DNA from: Salinarchaeum sp. IM2453
GTDB lineage: Archaea; Halobacteriota; Halobacteria; Halobacteriales; Salinarchaeaceae
Assembly: GCF_019693215.1 (NCBI RefSeq)
Contig: NZ_CP081183.1
Location: forward strand, 747,226-811,225
DNA length: 64,000 nucleotides
Direction of reading: 5' to 3'
Part shown: positions 5,610 through 12,828 of the stretch, piece by piece
Position numbering within the stretch: position 1 is the first letter of the stretch
Layout: every line of letters starts with the position of its first letter
Made by a program: the position numbers and the translations under genes
Notes under the pieces: model-generated
Database searches by the model: none
Told to the model about the DNA's origin: nothing
The model's input: only the letters and a program-made list of their open reading frames with translations

Positions 5610-6236
5610 TCAGGAGTCAACAGTGTGCCCATCGACATATGGAAGATCAGCTGCTGTCTGTTCAACCTTAGAGAGGTTAGAATACATGAGCGTTGTTGTA
5701 TCCCAGATTCCTTCAACTAATGCCTCCTGCATTGCTTGATCAATATGAACATCAATTTCGGTGTCATTATACGCAACAACGGCGTTCTCGACGTCGATAG
5801 TAACAGACTCTTCAGGATTTGCCTCAATCCAGTCCTGAAGCTTGCTGACAGTCTCGTGGTCAGTTGTAACAGCCGGGATGCCAAGTGACTTGCAGTTGTC
5901 TTTGAAGATTTCAGCAAACGATTCACCAACGACACCATCAATTCCCCAGCGCATCATGGCCTGTGGAGCATGTTCGCGGGATGAACCACAGCCAAAGTTG
6001 TCATTAACAACAGCGATGTTTGCACCAGAGTGGACATTTATTGGATGGTCGTTTAGCTCACCATCTTCATCGCGCCGAGCATCATAGAACAGATAGTCAT
6101 CCATCGACTCGAATGTTACTTCCTTCATAAATCGAGCCGGTAAGATTTGGTCAGTGTCAATATCATCACCGCGAATCGGAACACCAGGACCAGTAACGGT
6201 CGTAACGGCCAGAGATTCAGATTCCATGTCAGTCAT
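5610..6236 (-). CDS. leuD: 3-isopropylmalate dehydratase small subunit
   Basis: LeuD swivelling domain of isopropylmalate isomerase, 208 aa, which pairs with LeuC for the dehydration/hydration of 2-isopropylmalate (and citramalate-derived intermediates). Characteristic stretches are IRGDDIDTDQILPARF near the N-terminus and NFGCGSSREHAPQAM, the substrate-recognition loop. Its ATG shares one base with the TAA of leuC (TAATG), so it is translationally coupled. An alternative start is Met-4. It is the last recognisable gene of the ilv-leu operon; leuB, which often follows in haloarchaea, is not here. Confidence 0.95.
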   Translation of the reverse strand: MTDMESESLAVTTVTGPGVPIRGDDIDTDQILPARFMKEVTFESMDDYLFYDARRDEDGELNDHPINVHSGANIAVVNDNFGCGSSREHAPQAMMRWGIDGVVGESFAEIFKDNCKSLGIPAVTTDHETVSKLQDWIEANPEESVTIDVENAVVAYNDTEIDVHIDQAMQEALVEGIWDTTTLMYSNLSKVEQTAADLPYVDGHTVDS

Positions 6237-7699
6237 TAGTCAGCCACCTCCTCAGCATCCTCAGTGACAGGTTGATTTGTTGGACGATTCGTAAGATGTC
6301 GTACATCAGTTACTTCGCCTTTAACGGCTGCTGCAGCGACCATTGCTGGACTCATCAATACGGTTCGTCCATCTTTGGACCCCTGCCGGCCGATGAAGTT
6401 TCGGTTTGAGGAGGACGCACAGACTTCATCGCCAACAAGAGAGTCGTCGTTCATTGCTAAGCACATCGAGCAGCCAGCACGGCGCCATTCGAACCCGGCG
6501 TCAATGAAGACTTCATCGATGCCACGCCGTTCAAGTTCCTTACGGACAGACTCGGATCCAGGAACAGCAAGTGCACGAACATCATCCGCAACAGTTTTGC
6601 CATCAAGAATCTCAGCGGCTCGTTCAAAGTCTGAGACACGGCCATTGGTGCAGGTGCCCAAGAAAGCAACATCGATTGGGAACCCGTCCATGGTTTCGCC
6701 TGGTTCATGGCCCATATGGTCATATGCTTTTTCGGCTGCCTCCTGCTGTGTTCGAGAATCAAGCGAATCTGGTTCAGGAAGTGGCTCATCAATTGCGACA
6801 ACTTGCCCAGGGTTAACCCCCCACGTTACCATTGGTTTGAGGTTGCCAGCATCAATTGTAACAACATCATCATATTCAGCATCTTCATCAGAGCGAATTG
6901 ATTCCCAGTATTCAACGAGTTCATCAAAATCGTCCCCACCAGGAACGTATTCACGTCCCTGAAGGTACTCGTATGTTGTTTCATCGGGATTGATATATCC
7001 AGCGCGGGCACCACCCTCAATTGACATGTTACAGATGGCCATACGACCTTCCATGTCAAGTTCTTCGATTGCTGGACCACCATATTCGTATACGTGTCCA
7101 ACACCACCATCAACGCCAAGCTTTTCGATAACCTTGAGGATGACATCTTTCGCATAAACATCCTCAGGGATCGATCCATTAACCTGAATACGGCGAACTT
7201 TTTGTTTGTCAGCAGCGATACAACCGGTTGCCAATACGTCCCTAATTTGGCTGGTTCCAATCCCAACACCGATAGATCCAAATGCACCGTGGGTAGCTGT
7301 ATGCGAGTCACCACAAGCAACGACCATGCCTGGCTGTGTGAGTCCAAGTTCTGGTGCTACGACGTGAGTGATCCCTTGTTTGTCTGAGTCAAGTCCAAAG
7401 AAGGTAATCCCCGCTTCGGATACATTCTCTTCAAGCGCAGACAGCATTGTCTCAGCCTCATCGTCGTTGAGTGGGCGTTTGCGTTTTTCAGTTTCTGTGG
7501 GGACAATATGATCTGTCGTTGCAAAGGTTCGGTTAGGATAGGCAACCTGTAGGTCTCGTTCCTTGAGCATTGAGAATGCTTGCGGGCTAGTAACCTCATG
7601 CATCAAGTGAAGACCAATGAACAACTGGTCTTGACCATTCGGCAGTGTAGTCACTCGGTGACGCTCCCAGACCTTATCATATAGTGTATTTTCACTCAT
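6236..7699 (-). CDS. leuC: 3-isopropylmalate dehydratase large subunit
   Basis: Aconitase-family catalytic subunit. Three Fe-S ligand cysteines can be seen: one in [13 protein letters not shown] and two in [10 protein letters not shown]. The early motif ATTDHIVPT and [12 protein letters not shown] bind cluster and substrate. The frame is open 13 codons further upstream, but [14 protein letters not shown] (ATG at 7699) is the natural start. That ATG lies inside the last codons of ilvC (8-nt overlap), consistent with an operon. LeuCD works after LeuA, and also after citramalate synthase in the isoleucine pathway. Confidence 0.95.
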
Positions 7700-8705
7700 T
7701 GTCTTCTTCCCATGCAAACAGTTCACGCAGGCGTTCACCTACGTCTTCGATCTCACGGTTGCGTTCCTGTTCATACAGCTGCTTGTAACTTGGACGGCCA
7801 GTTTGATTCTCATTAATCCACTCTCGTGCAAATTCCCCATCTTGAATTTCTTCAAGAAGTTCCTCCATATTCTCACGAGCAGTCTCATCGACAACTTCTT
7901 CACCACGTGAAAGACCACCATATTCGGCGGTATCGGAGACAGAGTCCCACATCTCTGCAAGTCCGCCCTCATACATTAGGTCAACAATAAGCTTGAGCTC
8001 ATTGAGACATTCAAAGTATGCAATTTCTGGGCTGTATCCATTTTCAACCAGCGTATCGTAGCCGGCCTTAACAAGCGCAGTTGCGCCACCGCAGAGAACA
8101 GCCTGTTCTCCAAAGAGATCAGACTCAACCTCTTCTTGGAATGATGTTTCAATGACACCAGCACGGGCACAGCCAATACCTTGTGCATAAGCAAGCGCTT
8201 CATCAGCCGCTTCGCCGGTCGCGTCTTGGTAGATAGCCATCAAAGCAGGGGTTCCTTCGTCTTGCTCATAATTTCGGCGAACAAGGTGTCCAGGGCTCTT
8301 TGGTGCCACCATAGTCACGTCAACATCTTCTGGTGGTTGAATCTGGTTGTAGTGGATATTGAAGCCATGTGCAAATTGCAACGTGTCGCCGGGCTCAAGG
8401 TTTGGCTTGATGGCCGTTTCGTAAACATCCGGCTGAACGGTGTCTGGAAGCAGTACGGAAACAATGTCAGCCTGTTCAGCAGCAGAGCTTGGTGTTGCAA
8501 CCTCAAGACCGGCATCACGAGCTGCCTCGCGTGAAGAAGAGCCTTCACGAAGACCAACAACAACATCAATGCCAGAATCATTCAGATTCTGGGCGTGAGC
8601 ATGGCCTTGACTTCCATAGCCAAGTACAGCAACGGTTTTGTTTTCAATGTTCGAGCGATCCGCGTCGTTATCATAGTATACGGGTACAGTAAATTCGTCT
8701 GTCAT
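7692..8705 (-). CDS. ilvC: Ketol-acid reductoisomerase
   Basis: NADPH- and Mg-dependent enzyme converting acetolactate or acetohydroxybutyrate to the dihydroxy acids of the valine/isoleucine pathways; 337 aa, the class I length. The Rossmann motif is [24 protein letters not shown] and [12 protein letters not shown] follow, and the C-terminal knotted domain ([17 protein letters not shown]) carries the metal ligands. It sits between ilvN (56-nt gap) and leuC (overlap) in the operon. Confidence 0.97.
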
Positions 8706-8761: not shown

Positions 8762-9427
8762 TTAGTCGTCAGCCTCAACGGGGGGGAGGTTATCAACTTT
8801 GGCATTCCATTCATCTTCAACAGGCGCAGTCCAGTCGGTACCACGTGCAATTGCCGCTGTTCCAGTACGGGTAACTTCACGGACACCGAACCGTTCAAAT
8901 GCATCGACAGCAGCATTCAGCTTTGGTCGGCTGCCAGTGATCTCAACGGTTACAGTTTCTTGGCCAGCATCAACAGCTTGTCCACCATACATCTCTGCAA
9001 CGGATTGGACAGCATCGGGACTCTCAGCATCAACCTTAATTAAGGCGAGTTCGCGCTGAACAGCATTATCCTTGAGCTCACGAACAGCAATCACAGGGAC
9101 AAGCTTTCGAAGTTGTTTTTTTGCCTGTTGGACGCCAGGGCGAGGTTCTTCAATAACGAGGGTAATCCGTGCCTGAGATGGGTCTTCAGTTGGACCAACA
9201 GTCAGACTCTCGATATTGAACTGCCGGCGGCGGAAGAGGCTAGCAACCTGTGCTAGAACTCCGGGTTTATGCTTAACTAGCGCTGAAAGTACAGCGCGTT
9301 CTGGGTCTGGACTAGCCTGTGCATCAGGGTCAATACGAATACCCTGCTTATTACGGCGTCCACGAGGTTTGGGTCGTTCATCAGGAGCCGGTCCTTCTAA
9401 CGCTTGGGGGTCACTTTCGTCACTCAT
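8762..9427 (-). CDS. ilvN: Acetolactate synthase small (regulatory) subunit
   Basis: 221 aa. An N-terminal ACT domain (VLSALVKHKPGVLAQVASLF, then FNIESLTVGPTEDPSQARIT) is followed by the second ACT-like domain typical of IlvN/IlvH. Valine binding here gives feedback inhibition of the large subunit in the family. A charged, proline-rich N-terminal extension of about 40 aa precedes the ACT domain, common in haloarchaeal IlvN. It lies 17 nt after ilvB. Confidence 0.95.
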   Translation of the reverse strand: MSDESDPQALEGPAPDERPKPRGRRNKQGIRIDPDAQASPDPERAVLSALVKHKPGVLAQVASLFRRRQFNIESLTVGPTEDPSQARITLVIEEPRPGVQQAKKQLRKLVPVIAVRELKDNAVQRELALIKVDAESPDAVQSVAEMYGGQAVDAGQETVTVEITGSRPKLNAAVDAFERFGVREVTRTGTAAIARGTDWTAPVEDEWNAKVDNLPPVEADD

Positions 9428-9444: not shown

Positions 9445-11214
9445 TTAAAGTTGGTTCTTGGACAGTGCGAACTCAGCGTTGTTACCGCCGCTTGGAACCA
9501 TCGGATAGACGTTTGCTTCAGGGTCGATGCGTGCATCAATCACGGATGGGCCGTCATACTCGACTGCTTCTTGGATGGTTTCTGCAACCTCGTCATATTC
9601 TTCGATGGAGAAGCCAGCAGCACCAAAAGCTTCAGCGAGCTTATCGAACTCTGGCATCCAGTTGTAGTCAGACGCAACATGTCGGCCACCGAAGAACGCG
9701 TCTTGCCACTGTCGGACCATGCCAATGTATTCGTTGTTCAGAACAACATACGTGATATCAAGATCCTCACGGACCGCCACAGTAAGTTCCTGAATTGTCA
9801 TCAGGAATGACCCATCACCATCAAATCCAATGACGGTTTGGTCATCGTCAGCAGCATATCGAGCGCCGATTGCTGCTGGAACGCAATATCCCATTGCTCC
9901 GAGGCCCTGTGAAGAGACCCATGTTTGAGGTTCCTTATATGTCCAATATTGACAGGCCCACATTTGATGCTGTCCAACACCAGTAACGACAATGGTATCA
10001 TCATCTGTCGCTTCGTCGGTTGCTTCAACAACGAACTCTGGTTGGACGGGACGATCATCGGGGGTTGGGTACCCCATTGGGAAGTTGTCTTTCCAATCCA
10101 TAACCTGTGATCGCCAGTCATCGATAGCAGGGTCAGTATTCATCTCGTCGGTTATAGCCTCAACTGATGCACCCGCATCCCCGACGACTGGGTAGTCGGC
10201 CTTGATATTTTTGGAGATTTCTGCCGGATCAATATCGATATGGACAACTTCGGCATTTGGAGCAAACGTTTCAATGCCGCCAGTTAGTCGATCGTCAAAC
10301 CGGGTTCCAACTCCAATCAGCAGATCACAATGAGAGATAGCCATGTTAGCGTATCCGGTACCGTGCATGCCGGCCATCTCAAGTGACAACTTGTGGTCTT
10401 CAGGGAAGGATCCAAGACCAGGCATTGTGGTCGTAATAGGAATCCCATACTCCGTTGCAAATTCGCGGAGTTCCTTGCTTGCTTCAGACTTAATAACACC
10501 GCCACCAGCAAGGATCAATGGCTTATCAGCTTGCTCAATTGCGCGAGCAGCATCCTCAACTGCACCGCGGTCCGGCTCTGTCCTGTACTCATAAGTGTCT
10601 GGCGTGGACGGAACATCTGGACCTTCGGAAACCTCAGTTGTTGTCACATCTTTTGGTAGGTCAACAAGCGTCGGTCCGGGCCGACCCTCTCGTGAAAGTG
10701 CGATAGCTTCGCCAACATCGTTGCCGACTTCCTCTGGGTCAGCCGAGAAGATATTATGTTTTGTGATTGGATCGGTGATACCTGTCGTATCCACTTCCTG
10801 AAATGCATCATTTCCGACAAAATCTGTAGCCACTTGGCCTGTTAGAGCAACAACCGGATCTGAGTCCATTTTTGCATCCGCAATGCCAGTAATCAGATTT
10901 GTCGCACCAGGGCCAGATGTAGCCATGCACACACCCGGGTCATTTGAGACCATACCGTATCCATCAGCGGCATGTGCAGCACCTTGTTCGTGGGCCATAG
11001 TAATGTGGTTGAGCTCGTCAGAATAGTGCAGTTCATCATAAACCGGCATGATAGCACCACCCTGGATACCAAACAGATACTCGACATCAGCCTGCTCAAG
11101 TGCTTTAATGACTGACTCAGCACCGGTTGAAACCTCGTCGGTATCAGCTTGCTCGTTGTCTGCCTGTTCTGCTGCCGTTTCTGTTTCAGGGCGAACGTGT
11201 GCTTGCTCGCTCAT
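9445..11214 (-). CDS. ilvB: Acetolactate synthase large (catalytic) subunit
   Basis: Biosynthetic acetohydroxyacid synthase, 589 aa. After an acidic N-terminal extension the TPP domain begins (VIKALEQADVEYLFGIQGGA), with the activating Glu in MAHEQGAAHAADGYG and SGPGATNLITGIADAKMDS. The FAD-type middle domain and the TPP/Mg motif (GFDGDGSFLMTIQEL) follow. It is the first enzyme gene after the long leader described at 11215-11573. A Shine-Dalgarno-like GGTGA (11221-11225) lies 6 nt before the ATG, which fits translation inside a leadered mRNA rather than leaderless initiation. Confidence 0.96.
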   Translation of the reverse strand: MSEQAHVRPETETAAEQADNEQADTDEVSTGAESVIKALEQADVEYLFGIQGGAIMPVYDELHYSDELNHITMAHEQGAAHAADGYGMVSNDPGVCMATSGPGATNLITGIADAKMDSDPVVALTGQVATDFVGNDAFQEVDTTGITDPITKHNIFSADPEEVGNDVGEAIALSREGRPGPTLVDLPKDVTTTEVSEGPDVPSTPDTYEYRTEPDRGAVEDAARAIEQADKPLILAGGGVIKSEASKELREFATEYGIPITTTMPGLGSFPEDHKLSLEMAGMHGTGYANMAISHCDLLIGVGTRFDDRLTGGIETFAPNAEVVHIDIDPAEISKNIKADYPVVGDAGASVEAITDEMNTDPAIDDWRSQVMDWKDNFPMGYPTPDDRPVQPEFVVEATDEATDDDTIVVTGVGQHQMWACQYWTYKEPQTWVSSQGLGAMGYCVPAAIGARYAADDDQTVIGFDGDGSFLMTIQELTVAVREDLDITYVVLNNEYIGMVRQWQDAFFGGRHVASDYNWMPEFDKLAEAFGAAGFSIEEYDEVAETIQEAVEYDGPSVIDARIDPEANVYPMVPSGGNNAEFALSKNQL

Positions 11215-11351
11215 GGGTGGTCACCATATAGTTTGAAAGTAGTTTGCGAACGATACTGTCGTAAGTTGTTAGATGTATGATTCATTGGTAATGGGGTATT
11301 GGATGGTTGTTGAAAACCGTCGAACGTTACGTCAGGTGAAAATAGTTGGTG

Positions 11352-11369
11352 AGGGGCTATGCAGCCCCT
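11352..11369 (-). promoter_or_regulatory. Perfect hairpin overlapping the leader-peptide stop codon
   Basis: On the minus strand AGGGGCT-GCAT-AGCCCCT forms a 7-bp, five-GC-pair stem with a 4-nt loop. The UAG of the 30-codon leader starts in the loop. A ribosome stalled on the Val/Ile codons immediately upstream would cover the 5' arm and prevent folding. It is about 140 nt before ilvB. No strong U-tract follows directly (CTATTTTC occurs 8 nt later), so terminator function is uncertain. Confidence 0.5.
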
Positions 11370-11449
11370 ACAATAATAGCTACAGGAAGTACACGAGCAG
11401 CGTCGCTGTTGGAGATGAGAGAACTTCCAACGAACTGACGCTGATTCAT
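11357..11449 (-). CDS. Putative branched-chain leader peptide (30 aa) ahead of ilvB
   Basis: ATG 11449-11447, stop TAG 11359-11357. The product is MNQRQFVGSSLISNSDAARV followed by LPVAIIVGAA. The last dozen codons are GTA-CTT-CCT-GTA-GCT-ATT-ATT-GTA-GGG-GCT-GCA-TAG, so Val, Leu and Ile, the end products of this operon, are concentrated just before the stop. A TTAAA box centred 29 nt before the ATG would make the leader mRNA start at or near this ORF. The hairpin at 11352-11369 overlaps the last codons and the stop. This resembles ribosome-stalling leader peptides of bacterial ilv operons in layout. Whether it is translated is not known, and the peptide is too short for a homology argument. 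Confidence 0.55.
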   Translation of the reverse strand: MNQRQFVGSSLISNSDAARVLPVAIIVGAA

Positions 11450-11475
11450 TACCTGTAAAGGATGTCTCTCTACTC

Positions 11476-11480
11476 TTTAA
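11476..11480 (-). promoter_or_regulatory. TATA-like box for the ilv leader transcript
   Basis: TTAAA on the minus strand, within AGCTTAAAGAG, is centred 29 nt upstream of the leader ATG at 11449. It is the best-spaced AT box in the leuA-ilvB gap and would give a leaderless leader-peptide mRNA carrying a roughly 235-nt untranslated or leader region before ilvB. Confidence 0.4.
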
Positions 11481-11573
11481 GCTTTCGTAATTATTTTTGT
11501 AAATACTCTCAGCTTGACGATGGACATCTACCGGTCGCTTTGCGAGTTTGATCATGGCAAGTATTCTACTGGA

Positions 11574-12801
11574 TTAGGCGTGGATTTCGTCTTCCTCTTC
11601 GCGTGGTACTCCAATTTCGCGTGCAAACCGTCGGAGTTCCTCAACCGTGACTCGGTTTTTCTCCGCACCATAATCCTTGACTCGCCGGGTAACCGCTTTG
11701 ACCTGTTCTTCTGATGGGTCAAAGCCAGCCTCAGCGAGCCGCTTCCGGACTGAGTTAGTTCCGGTGTGCTTGCCAAGTACGAGTTGACGTTCTGCCCCGA
11801 CCATTTCAGGAGTCATAACGCCAGGCTCGAACGTGTCGGAATTTTCAATGACACCAGCGGCGTGAATACCACTTTCATGTGAGAAGGCGTTACGACCAAC
11901 AACGGGCTTGTTCGCAGGGGTGGGAACATCGCTTTTTTCCTCGACAACGCGAGAAAGTTCAGTAATACGGGTTGTATCAATCCCAGTATCAACCTGATAT
12001 AGAGACTCAAGTGCCATTACAACCTCCTCGTAGGCTGCGTTACCAGCGCGTTCACCAATCGAATTAACTGACACCTGAGCCTGATCTGCCCCAGCTTCGA
12101 AACCAGCAATAGCATTAGCCGTTGCCATCCCGAAATCGTCGTGTGCGTGTACATCAATGCGAGCATCGGTGTGTGCTCGCACTGTTTCAATTAAATCGTA
12201 CATACGCCGCGGAGCGGCAACGCCTGTTGTATCAGGAATATTAATCCAGTCGGTTCCTGCCTCGGTTACGGCTTCAATGACTTCAATTAAGAATTGTTCG
12301 TCAGTTCGCGTCGCATCCATCGGTGAAAACATACAGGTCGCACCTGCATCGACAATCTGTTCGACAGATTTGACGGCTCGTTCCAATACATCCTCACGGG
12401 TTGCATGCATTGAGTCTTCAATTTGCACATCACTTGTCGATACAAACGTATGGACCATCTCAGCACCGCTGTCAAGCGCAGCTTCGATGTCTTTCTCGAC
12501 CACACGCGCCAATCCAGCAACAGTGGTGTCTGTGGATTCAGCGATATCTTGTACAGCTTCAAACTCGGCATCAGAATTAACTGGGAAACCAGCCTCAATG
12601 ACATGCGTTCCCATGTCGTCGAGCAACGCGGCTATTTCTCGTTTATCTTCGTATGAAAACGAGGTACGTGGTGACTGCTCACCATCACGGAGTGTAGTAT
12701 CAAAAATCCGTGCGTCATCAATCTCGTTAGTTGAGTCCAGCGTGCCCTTGAAGAACTCGACCCCCCTGACTGGTGTCAGAGGACGTGTCGTTGTGAGACA
12801 T
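11574..12801 (-). CDS. leuA: 2-isopropylmalate synthase or citramalate synthase, with an apparent frameshift near the N-terminus
   Basis: DRE-TIM metallolyase: FDTTLRDGEQSP holds the catalytic Arg and the metal-binding Asp, HAHDDFGMA holds metal-ligand histidines, and SVNSIGERAGNA and HESGIHAAGV follow. The catalytic barrel and linker are present, but the classical C-terminal LeuA regulatory domain is absent, so (R)-citramalate synthase (cimA) is a real alternative. The well-placed ATG at 12801 (MSHNDTSSDTSQG), with a TTTAAA box 30 nt upstream, is in a different frame from the enzyme. The two frames would join if the G6 run (C6 at 12761-12766) had five G. Without that, the enzyme frame has no ATG, GTG or TTG between its only upstream ATG (12935, ahead of the promoter) and VEFFKGTLDST. 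Confidence 0.85.
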
Positions 12802-12828
12802 TGTAATAAGACAGTTGATGAGTATACA

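Follow-up and report, generated by a model that had tools for sequence, protein, structure and literature searches.

Leader-peptide attenuation is a textbook mechanism that has been described for bacteria. In the ilvGMEDA, ilvBN and leuABCD operons, and in ilvBNC of Corynebacterium glutamicum, a short open reading frame (ORF) with branched-chain control codons lies adjacent to a hairpin. The Escherichia coli pheST attenuator has a Phe-rich leader peptide, PheM, while TnaC of the E. coli tna operon acts by peptide-specific arrest together with Rho. For C. glutamicum ilvBNC, a three-hairpin model has been put forward (PMC11857589). In the archaeon Haloferax volcanii, upstream ORFs (uORFs) occur in long 5'-UTRs of 150-250 nt (Babski et al. 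2016, PMC4983044); the table of that study includes a 26-aa uORF before pheS, for which no function is given, ilvB is absent from this table, and no link is drawn between the residues of a uORF and the function of the gene. Full-text literature searches, which left most subscription papers outside their reach, returned no precedent for leader-peptide attenuation in archaea.

The window analyzed here is a stretch of 64,000 nucleotides from the Salinarchaeum sp. IM2453 genome, which consists of a single contig of 2.66 Mb. Its minus strand bears leuA (11574..12803), encoding 2-isopropylmalate synthase (NCBIfam PRK00915 / LEU1_arch), followed by ilvB (9445..11214), the presumed regulated gene, which encodes the large subunit of acetolactate synthase (NCBIfam TIGR00118 and others), and then by ilvN (8762-9427), ilvC (7692-8705), leuC (6236-7738) and leuD (5610-6236). 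The identities of all these operon genes were confirmed by profile searches. The initial annotation had placed a leader in a 360-nt gap between leuA and ilvB. This gap exists, but it is not plain intergenic DNA, since a second ORF (11555-11211), hereafter the linker, fills it.

The 30-codon ORF on which that proposal was built, with VLPVAIIV near its end, is present on the minus strand (uORF1, 11357..11449) and reads MNQRQFVGSSLISNSDAARVLPVAIIVGAA up to its stop codon. Upstream of it lies a BRE/TATA-like element, GAAAGCTTAAAG (11475..11486, minus strand), whose TATA-like box TTAAAG (11480-11475) is located 29 nt before the ATG, as had been described. The putative control codons V-L-P-V-A-I-I-V (11369..11392) lead into a hairpin with a 7-bp stem, AGGGGCT-GCAT-AGCCCCT (11352..11369), which encloses the TAG stop of uORF1. 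The hairpin is followed by a G-free tract (11334..11351) with a T-rich TATTTT (11344-11339), a candidate termination or pause site. The Shine-Dalgarno-like GGTGA reported before ilvB is likewise found (11221..11225), all of these features being on the same strand. The pattern GTAGGGG-N2..12-CCCCT is present only once in the source genome.

For comparison, ilvB was searched in 117 relatives spanning 17 families and in a named collection, and the upstream DNA was retrieved. Almost throughout the relatives, leuA lies upstream of ilvB. The 95 leuA-ilvB gaps compared include a few duplicates (species taken from both collections), and related genomes are not independent of each other. An ORF ending in [I/V]-V-G-[A/V] was found in 94 of these 95 gaps across Halobacteria, while such an ORF occurred neither on the reverse strand of the same gaps (0/95) nor in the control leaders (0/104: pheS 30, tyrS 19, trpC 29 and hisG 26). 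It is this comparison with homologous gaps and controls, and not the window alone, that excludes chance. Over the whole class, the pattern ATTGTAGGGGY-N2..10-CCCC, which misses ATC variants, was detected in 293 of 392 genomes, and the reversed pattern in only a few.

Several genomes of one genus bear a second ATTGTAGGGGTGCATCCCCC site, which points the other way and is located upstream of a TFB-like gene. These second copies were rejected as related elements because of their other orientation, their position before the TFB-like gene and their lack of relation to ilvB; the site is perhaps a DNA operator.

In four deep relatives (L183-L186), leuA and ilvB almost abut, and there is no leader, hairpin or linker. 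This distribution indicates that the element probably arose within Halobacteria and is probably not older than core Halobacteria. Genomes of about 1 Mb (L187 and L188) have kept the leader, which ends in VQVSVGA and VQVFVGA, respectively, but with a changed and weaker hairpin and no linker ORF.

The promoter and the reading frame of uORF1 are kept together in the relatives. When the TATA motif was assigned independently of reading frame and the first ATG 24-38 nt downstream was then scored, this ATG shared the frame of the IVG core in 90 of 91 loci, and the distance from TATA to ATG was exactly 30 nt in 68 of 94. Frame 0 was free of stops between the ATG and the core; 90 stops followed over the 15 nt beyond it. 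Given the archaeal TATA-to-start spacing, the 5' end of the transcript would coincide with the uORF1 ATG or lie only a few bases away from it, and the uORF1 mRNA is probably leaderless.

Alignment of the leuA-ilvB gaps, the check proposed with the initial annotation, came out in favor of the leader, as the relatives hold the ORF and its branched-chain bias is kept while its body drifts. In close pairs, the uORF1 body has a dN/dS of ~0.85 and substitution is equal at all codon positions, which means that the peptide is not conserved as a protein. At the eight positions preceding VG, Ile, Leu and Val together account for 46% of residues versus 11% in the body, and Ile alone for 22% versus 0.3%. 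The residue at position -1 before V-G is branched in all 94 loci (Ile 91, Val 3), and the enrichment in Ile, Leu and Val is highest at codons -3 to -1. Since the Ile codons alternate between ATT and ATC, the residue is kept beyond the nucleotide. The rare ATT accounts for 78% of the leader Ile codons versus 8% of those in leuA; third-position T is enriched also in the non-Ile codons of the control stretch, so that the cause may be slow decoding or low structure and not Ile alone.

The strong conservation of the short C-terminal motif could also be accounted for by nascent-peptide arrest, in which IVG[AV] at the C-terminus would stall the ribosome in response to a small molecule, which for TnaC is tryptophan. 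However, the residues upstream of the motif are free, and the hairpin arm GGGGC imposes the Gly-Ala of the core at least in part. Moreover, the repeats found in the paralog leaders described below differ from one another, which codon counting explains better. An arrest of this type is therefore considered improbable.

The hairpin of the window has a folding energy of -13.1 kcal/mol (z = -2.1) and is by itself only moderately unusual, as 8 of 200 shuffled sequences fold equally well. In all 94 loci of the relatives, CCCC follows GGGG at a distance of 5, 6, 7, 8 or 9 nt, the 3' arm having played no part in finding these loci. Their hairpins average -13.1 kcal/mol, as against -6.9 kcal/mol when the 3' side is shuffled, and the mean pairing probability within the full leader is 0.95. 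The stop codon, which is TAG in 72 cases, TGA in 14 and TAA in 8, lies in or beside the loop; in L032, L036 and L040 it is shifted downstream and the hairpin is retained. Compensatory changes, which had been named as a further sign of the structure, were seen in part. Covariation is not scorable in the main set because its 5' arm GTAGGGG is invariant, but changed letters with pairing kept do occur in divergent lineages and in paralogs. Read by eye, pairing seems to be kept in L196 (GGGCC-GCGAT-GGCCC) and L187 (GGTGC-TTAGC-GCGCC). In the main set, the GTAGGGG arm is conserved beyond the needs of pairing, and this counts against attenuation as a full account of the element.

A near-palindrome with one highly conserved half, the full pattern of which is single-copy in the genome, might alternatively be a DNA operator, GTAGGGG(N5-9)CCCC(TAC), which would bind a transcription factor and to which the ORF would be incidental. 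Against this stands the spacer between the half-sites, which takes any length from 5 to 9 bp (5, 6, 7, 8 or 9) where a dimer site would have a fixed one, as well as the degeneracy of the second half beyond CCCC. In addition, the reading frame, the promoter spacing and the branched-chain codons are all kept, none of which is needed by an operator. This explanation is thus very improbable.

Positions 5-20 past the 3' arm are nearly G-free in the relatives, and within a pyrimidine tract T is most frequent at +15 to +17, counted from the first base of CCCC. The T-rich tract is short and set 8-12 nt downstream of the hairpin, and a run of at least four T is present in only 26 of 94 loci, which counts against the attenuation reading. 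In H. volcanii, 503 RNA 3' ends were reported to have hairpins no more than 10 nt ahead of them, one tested structure terminated 59%, and archaeal terminators differ from a hairpin with an immediate U run (PMC7237163). The H. volcanii observations make termination at the ilvB leader plausible. RNAalifold and duplex tests revealed no conserved antiterminator or second conserved structure. Mutually exclusive antiterminator and terminator hairpins were not found either, long-range pairing not exceeding that of shuffled sequences except for a weak signal. A search against the Rfam amino-acid leader RNA families gave no match near any gathering score, and a plasmid search returned nothing.

The linker ORF (11211..11555, minus strand) has 114 codons in the window and lies in the -1 frame relative to uORF1. 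In ~90% of loci, its frame stays open over the whole distance between the leuA stop and the ilvB start, through the promoter, uORF1 and the hairpin, and its TGA overlaps the ATG of ilvB (ATGA). In the relatives, the linker is usually 77-182 codons long; its start codon is located at most 12 nt from the leuA stop in 91 of 94 loci, and a Shine-Dalgarno-like motif for it is present at the end of leuA in 86 of 94. In the window, the linker starts 21 nt past the leuA stop and has no Shine-Dalgarno motif. Its phase relative to uORF1 is fixed by two stop codons, the TAG in GTAGGGG, which closes the +1 frame, and that of uORF1, which closes frame 0. The fixed -1 phase had also pointed to a programmed -1 frameshift from uORF1 into the linker. 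This candidate was rejected, since the frame of the linker is just as open ahead of the promoter and begins at the leuA stop; the two stop codons are the simpler explanation of the phase.

The predicted linker peptide is basic, with a crude dN/dS of 0.56-0.87, and had no match to a protein family in profile searches; its core uses the rare Arg codon AGG invariably. Judging from these features, the linker seems to be retained for the passage of ribosomes from leuA to ilvB, and to be selected for its translation and not for its product. In many loci, the linker bears a recurrent YR[PQ]-like motif (GTATCG at the DNA level) toward its C-terminal end, a region that in the window corresponds to 11211-11285 (minus strand).

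A linker frame open from leuA to ilvB in nearly all loci would also be compatible with the linker alone being real and uORF1 being a shadow of its coding in another frame. This possibility is hardly credible, because the linker protein, with the dN/dS values, the basic composition and the invariable AGG given above, is hardly better conserved than uORF1, and because paralogs that have neither leuA nor a linker retain both uORF1 and the hairpin.

These paralogs comprise three copies of ilvB without an upstream leuA, which were retrieved as controls, and one further copy. Their leaders, each closed by a stop codon, are MQWSTIPGRSSVGSGASIIAIIAIIGVS (L226), MTRSTAPESTLVTSGISDSATGIIGIIGIIGAPQ (L227), MVEFATFDFAIFRRNSIIGASY (L228) and MRPIPVSGSQFDGVAPSPVFVGAA (L220). 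All four run into a GGGG..CCCC hairpin with the stop inside, and their repeats are IIAIIAIIGVS and GIIGIIGIIGAPQ, both directly before the stop, SIIGASY and VFVGAA. In three of the paralogs, ATT ATT GGGG replaces ATT GTA GGGG. It is difficult to account for such repeated Ile codons unless they serve as control codons, and the paralogs suggest that the leader module can stand alone, without leuA and the linker.

The comparative tests thus support the layout proposed in the initial annotation, a Val/Leu/Ile leader as candidate attenuator: the ORF, its bias and the hairpin are kept, while the length of the loop varies. The preferred reading, with a probability of about two in three, is that uORF1 serves as a leader for ribosome-mediated attenuation of ilvBNC-leuCD, in which a single hairpin would be covered by a stalled ribosome. 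From the ORF, its frame, promoter spacing, control residues, hairpin and linker, which are present in the sequence and its comparison, we infer translation of uORF1, stalling, a termination readout and the direction of control. The internal promoter would give rise to a transcript that begins at the uORF1 ATG or a few bases from it, and the ribosome on uORF1 would sense the supply of Ile and Val (and Leu) for ilvBNC-leuCD. If charged Ile-, Val- and Leu-tRNA were plentiful, this ribosome would pass the control codons, end at the stop inside the hairpin and depart. The hairpin could then form, and RNA polymerase would halt or pause at the pyrimidine/T-rich tract 8-12 nt further on. Under scarcity, the ribosome would stall on the last codons before GTAGGGG and mask the 5' arm, so that no hairpin would form and transcription would enter ilvB.

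A ribosome protects ~12-15 nt ahead of its P site. One that stalled on codons -3 to GTA would by this geometry cover part or all of the 5' arm, and these codons are those with the strongest bias. Scarcity would prevent the hairpin and plenty would allow it, which gives the right sign of control if the hairpin stops or pauses RNA polymerase. One hairpin would suffice for this purpose, and an antiterminator would be unnecessary. On transcripts derived from leuA, ribosomes would traverse this stretch in the frame of the linker, and coupling would bring them to ilvB.

The window also contains an internal ATG of the linker frame (uORF2, 11211..11285, minus strand), located 74 nt past the uORF1 stop and coupled to ilvB via ATGA. 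A linker-frame ATG is present 50-100 nt past the uORF1 stop in 69 of 94 loci, and 71 ATGs at that distance are in the linker frame versus 12 and 5 in the other frames. Possibly, uORF2 is a start for ribosomes on the internal transcript. No Shine-Dalgarno motif was found before uORF2 in 73 loci (0/73), while a Shine-Dalgarno-like motif precedes ilvB in 51 of 73 relatives, with 12 expected by shuffling. The conserved downstream ATG counts against simple attenuation, as it hints that re-initiation also matters.

Purely translational control, in which uORF1 and the hairpin would govern re-initiation at uORF2 and hence coupling to ilvB, with no attenuation of transcription, would draw on this enrichment of ATG in the linker frame, on the ATGA overlap and on the motif before ilvB; uORF2-like ORFs before two of the leuA-less paralogs agree with it too. 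Nevertheless it is judged unlikely, because simple re-initiation would lower ilvB expression upon stalling, the wrong direction for a biosynthetic operon, and because uORF2 has no Shine-Dalgarno motif of its own. The initial annotation had further suggested that TCACCA could sequester the ilvB Shine-Dalgarno. This found little backing, as conserved pairing with that site does not go beyond a weakly favored mean z of -0.54 and its regulatory direction would be wrong in a simple model. The weakness of this pairing likewise weighs against translational control.

A second case may exist upstream of pheS. A Phe-rich ORF ending like GFGFFFA at its stop was found before pheS in 20 of 30 relatives, mostly ~100-245 nt away, and a Phe-ending ORF occurred in none of the other control gene sets. 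In the source genome, this leader reads MATEPYSRRTTNQSGSFLGFGFLSLV. Compared by the ORF alone, it is similar to the PheM leader of E. coli pheST, and it looks like a second leader-peptide attenuator, which lowers the chance that the ilvB case is an isolated curiosity. The pheS leaders also have a conserved downstream stretch, GGTGGACTC...GAAACCG, possibly a structured RNA. No more than isolated matches came from leader scans before trpC, trpS, tyrS, hisG and leuA.

The ilvB leader shares with the bacterial ilv and leu attenuators the short ORF, the branched-chain control codons and the adjacent hairpin. It differs from them in that it is seemingly leaderless with an archaeal TATA promoter, in that one hairpin contains the leader stop and no competing antiterminator was found, in that the T-rich tract is offset by 8-12 nt, and in that the whole is nested in an unrelated linker ORF. 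What it would have in common with the E. coli tna leader is a ribosome that halts as it finishes the leader ORF and so denies access to the RNA just behind; the haloarchaeal control codons vary, however, and archaea have, to our knowledge, no Rho. With the H. volcanii uORFs, the likeness is that of short ORFs in 5'-UTRs, including one before pheS. As far as its sequence goes, the ilvB leader resembles a bacterial leader-peptide attenuator. It is not classed as a member, because mutually exclusive hairpins were not found and its terminator and its regulation are putative.

The chances appear evenly balanced that Halobacteria have their own class of ribosome-operated attenuators, in which leaderless sensor ORFs carry control codons beside hairpins. 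Such a class would comprise the leaders of ilvB and of its paralogs as well as the pheS leader with its Phe codons. The ilvB member would be nested in a translated, sequence-free linker, where the RNA would be read in one frame on leuA transcripts, as a bypass, and in another on internal transcripts, as a sensor. The linker ORF points to selection that acts on its being translated and not on what it encodes. If this is a conserved archaeal version of attenuation, coupling of translation and transcription would sense amino acids despite a eukaryote-like RNA polymerase, the lack of Rho and mostly leaderless mRNAs, and archaea would have reached attenuation with a different anatomy.
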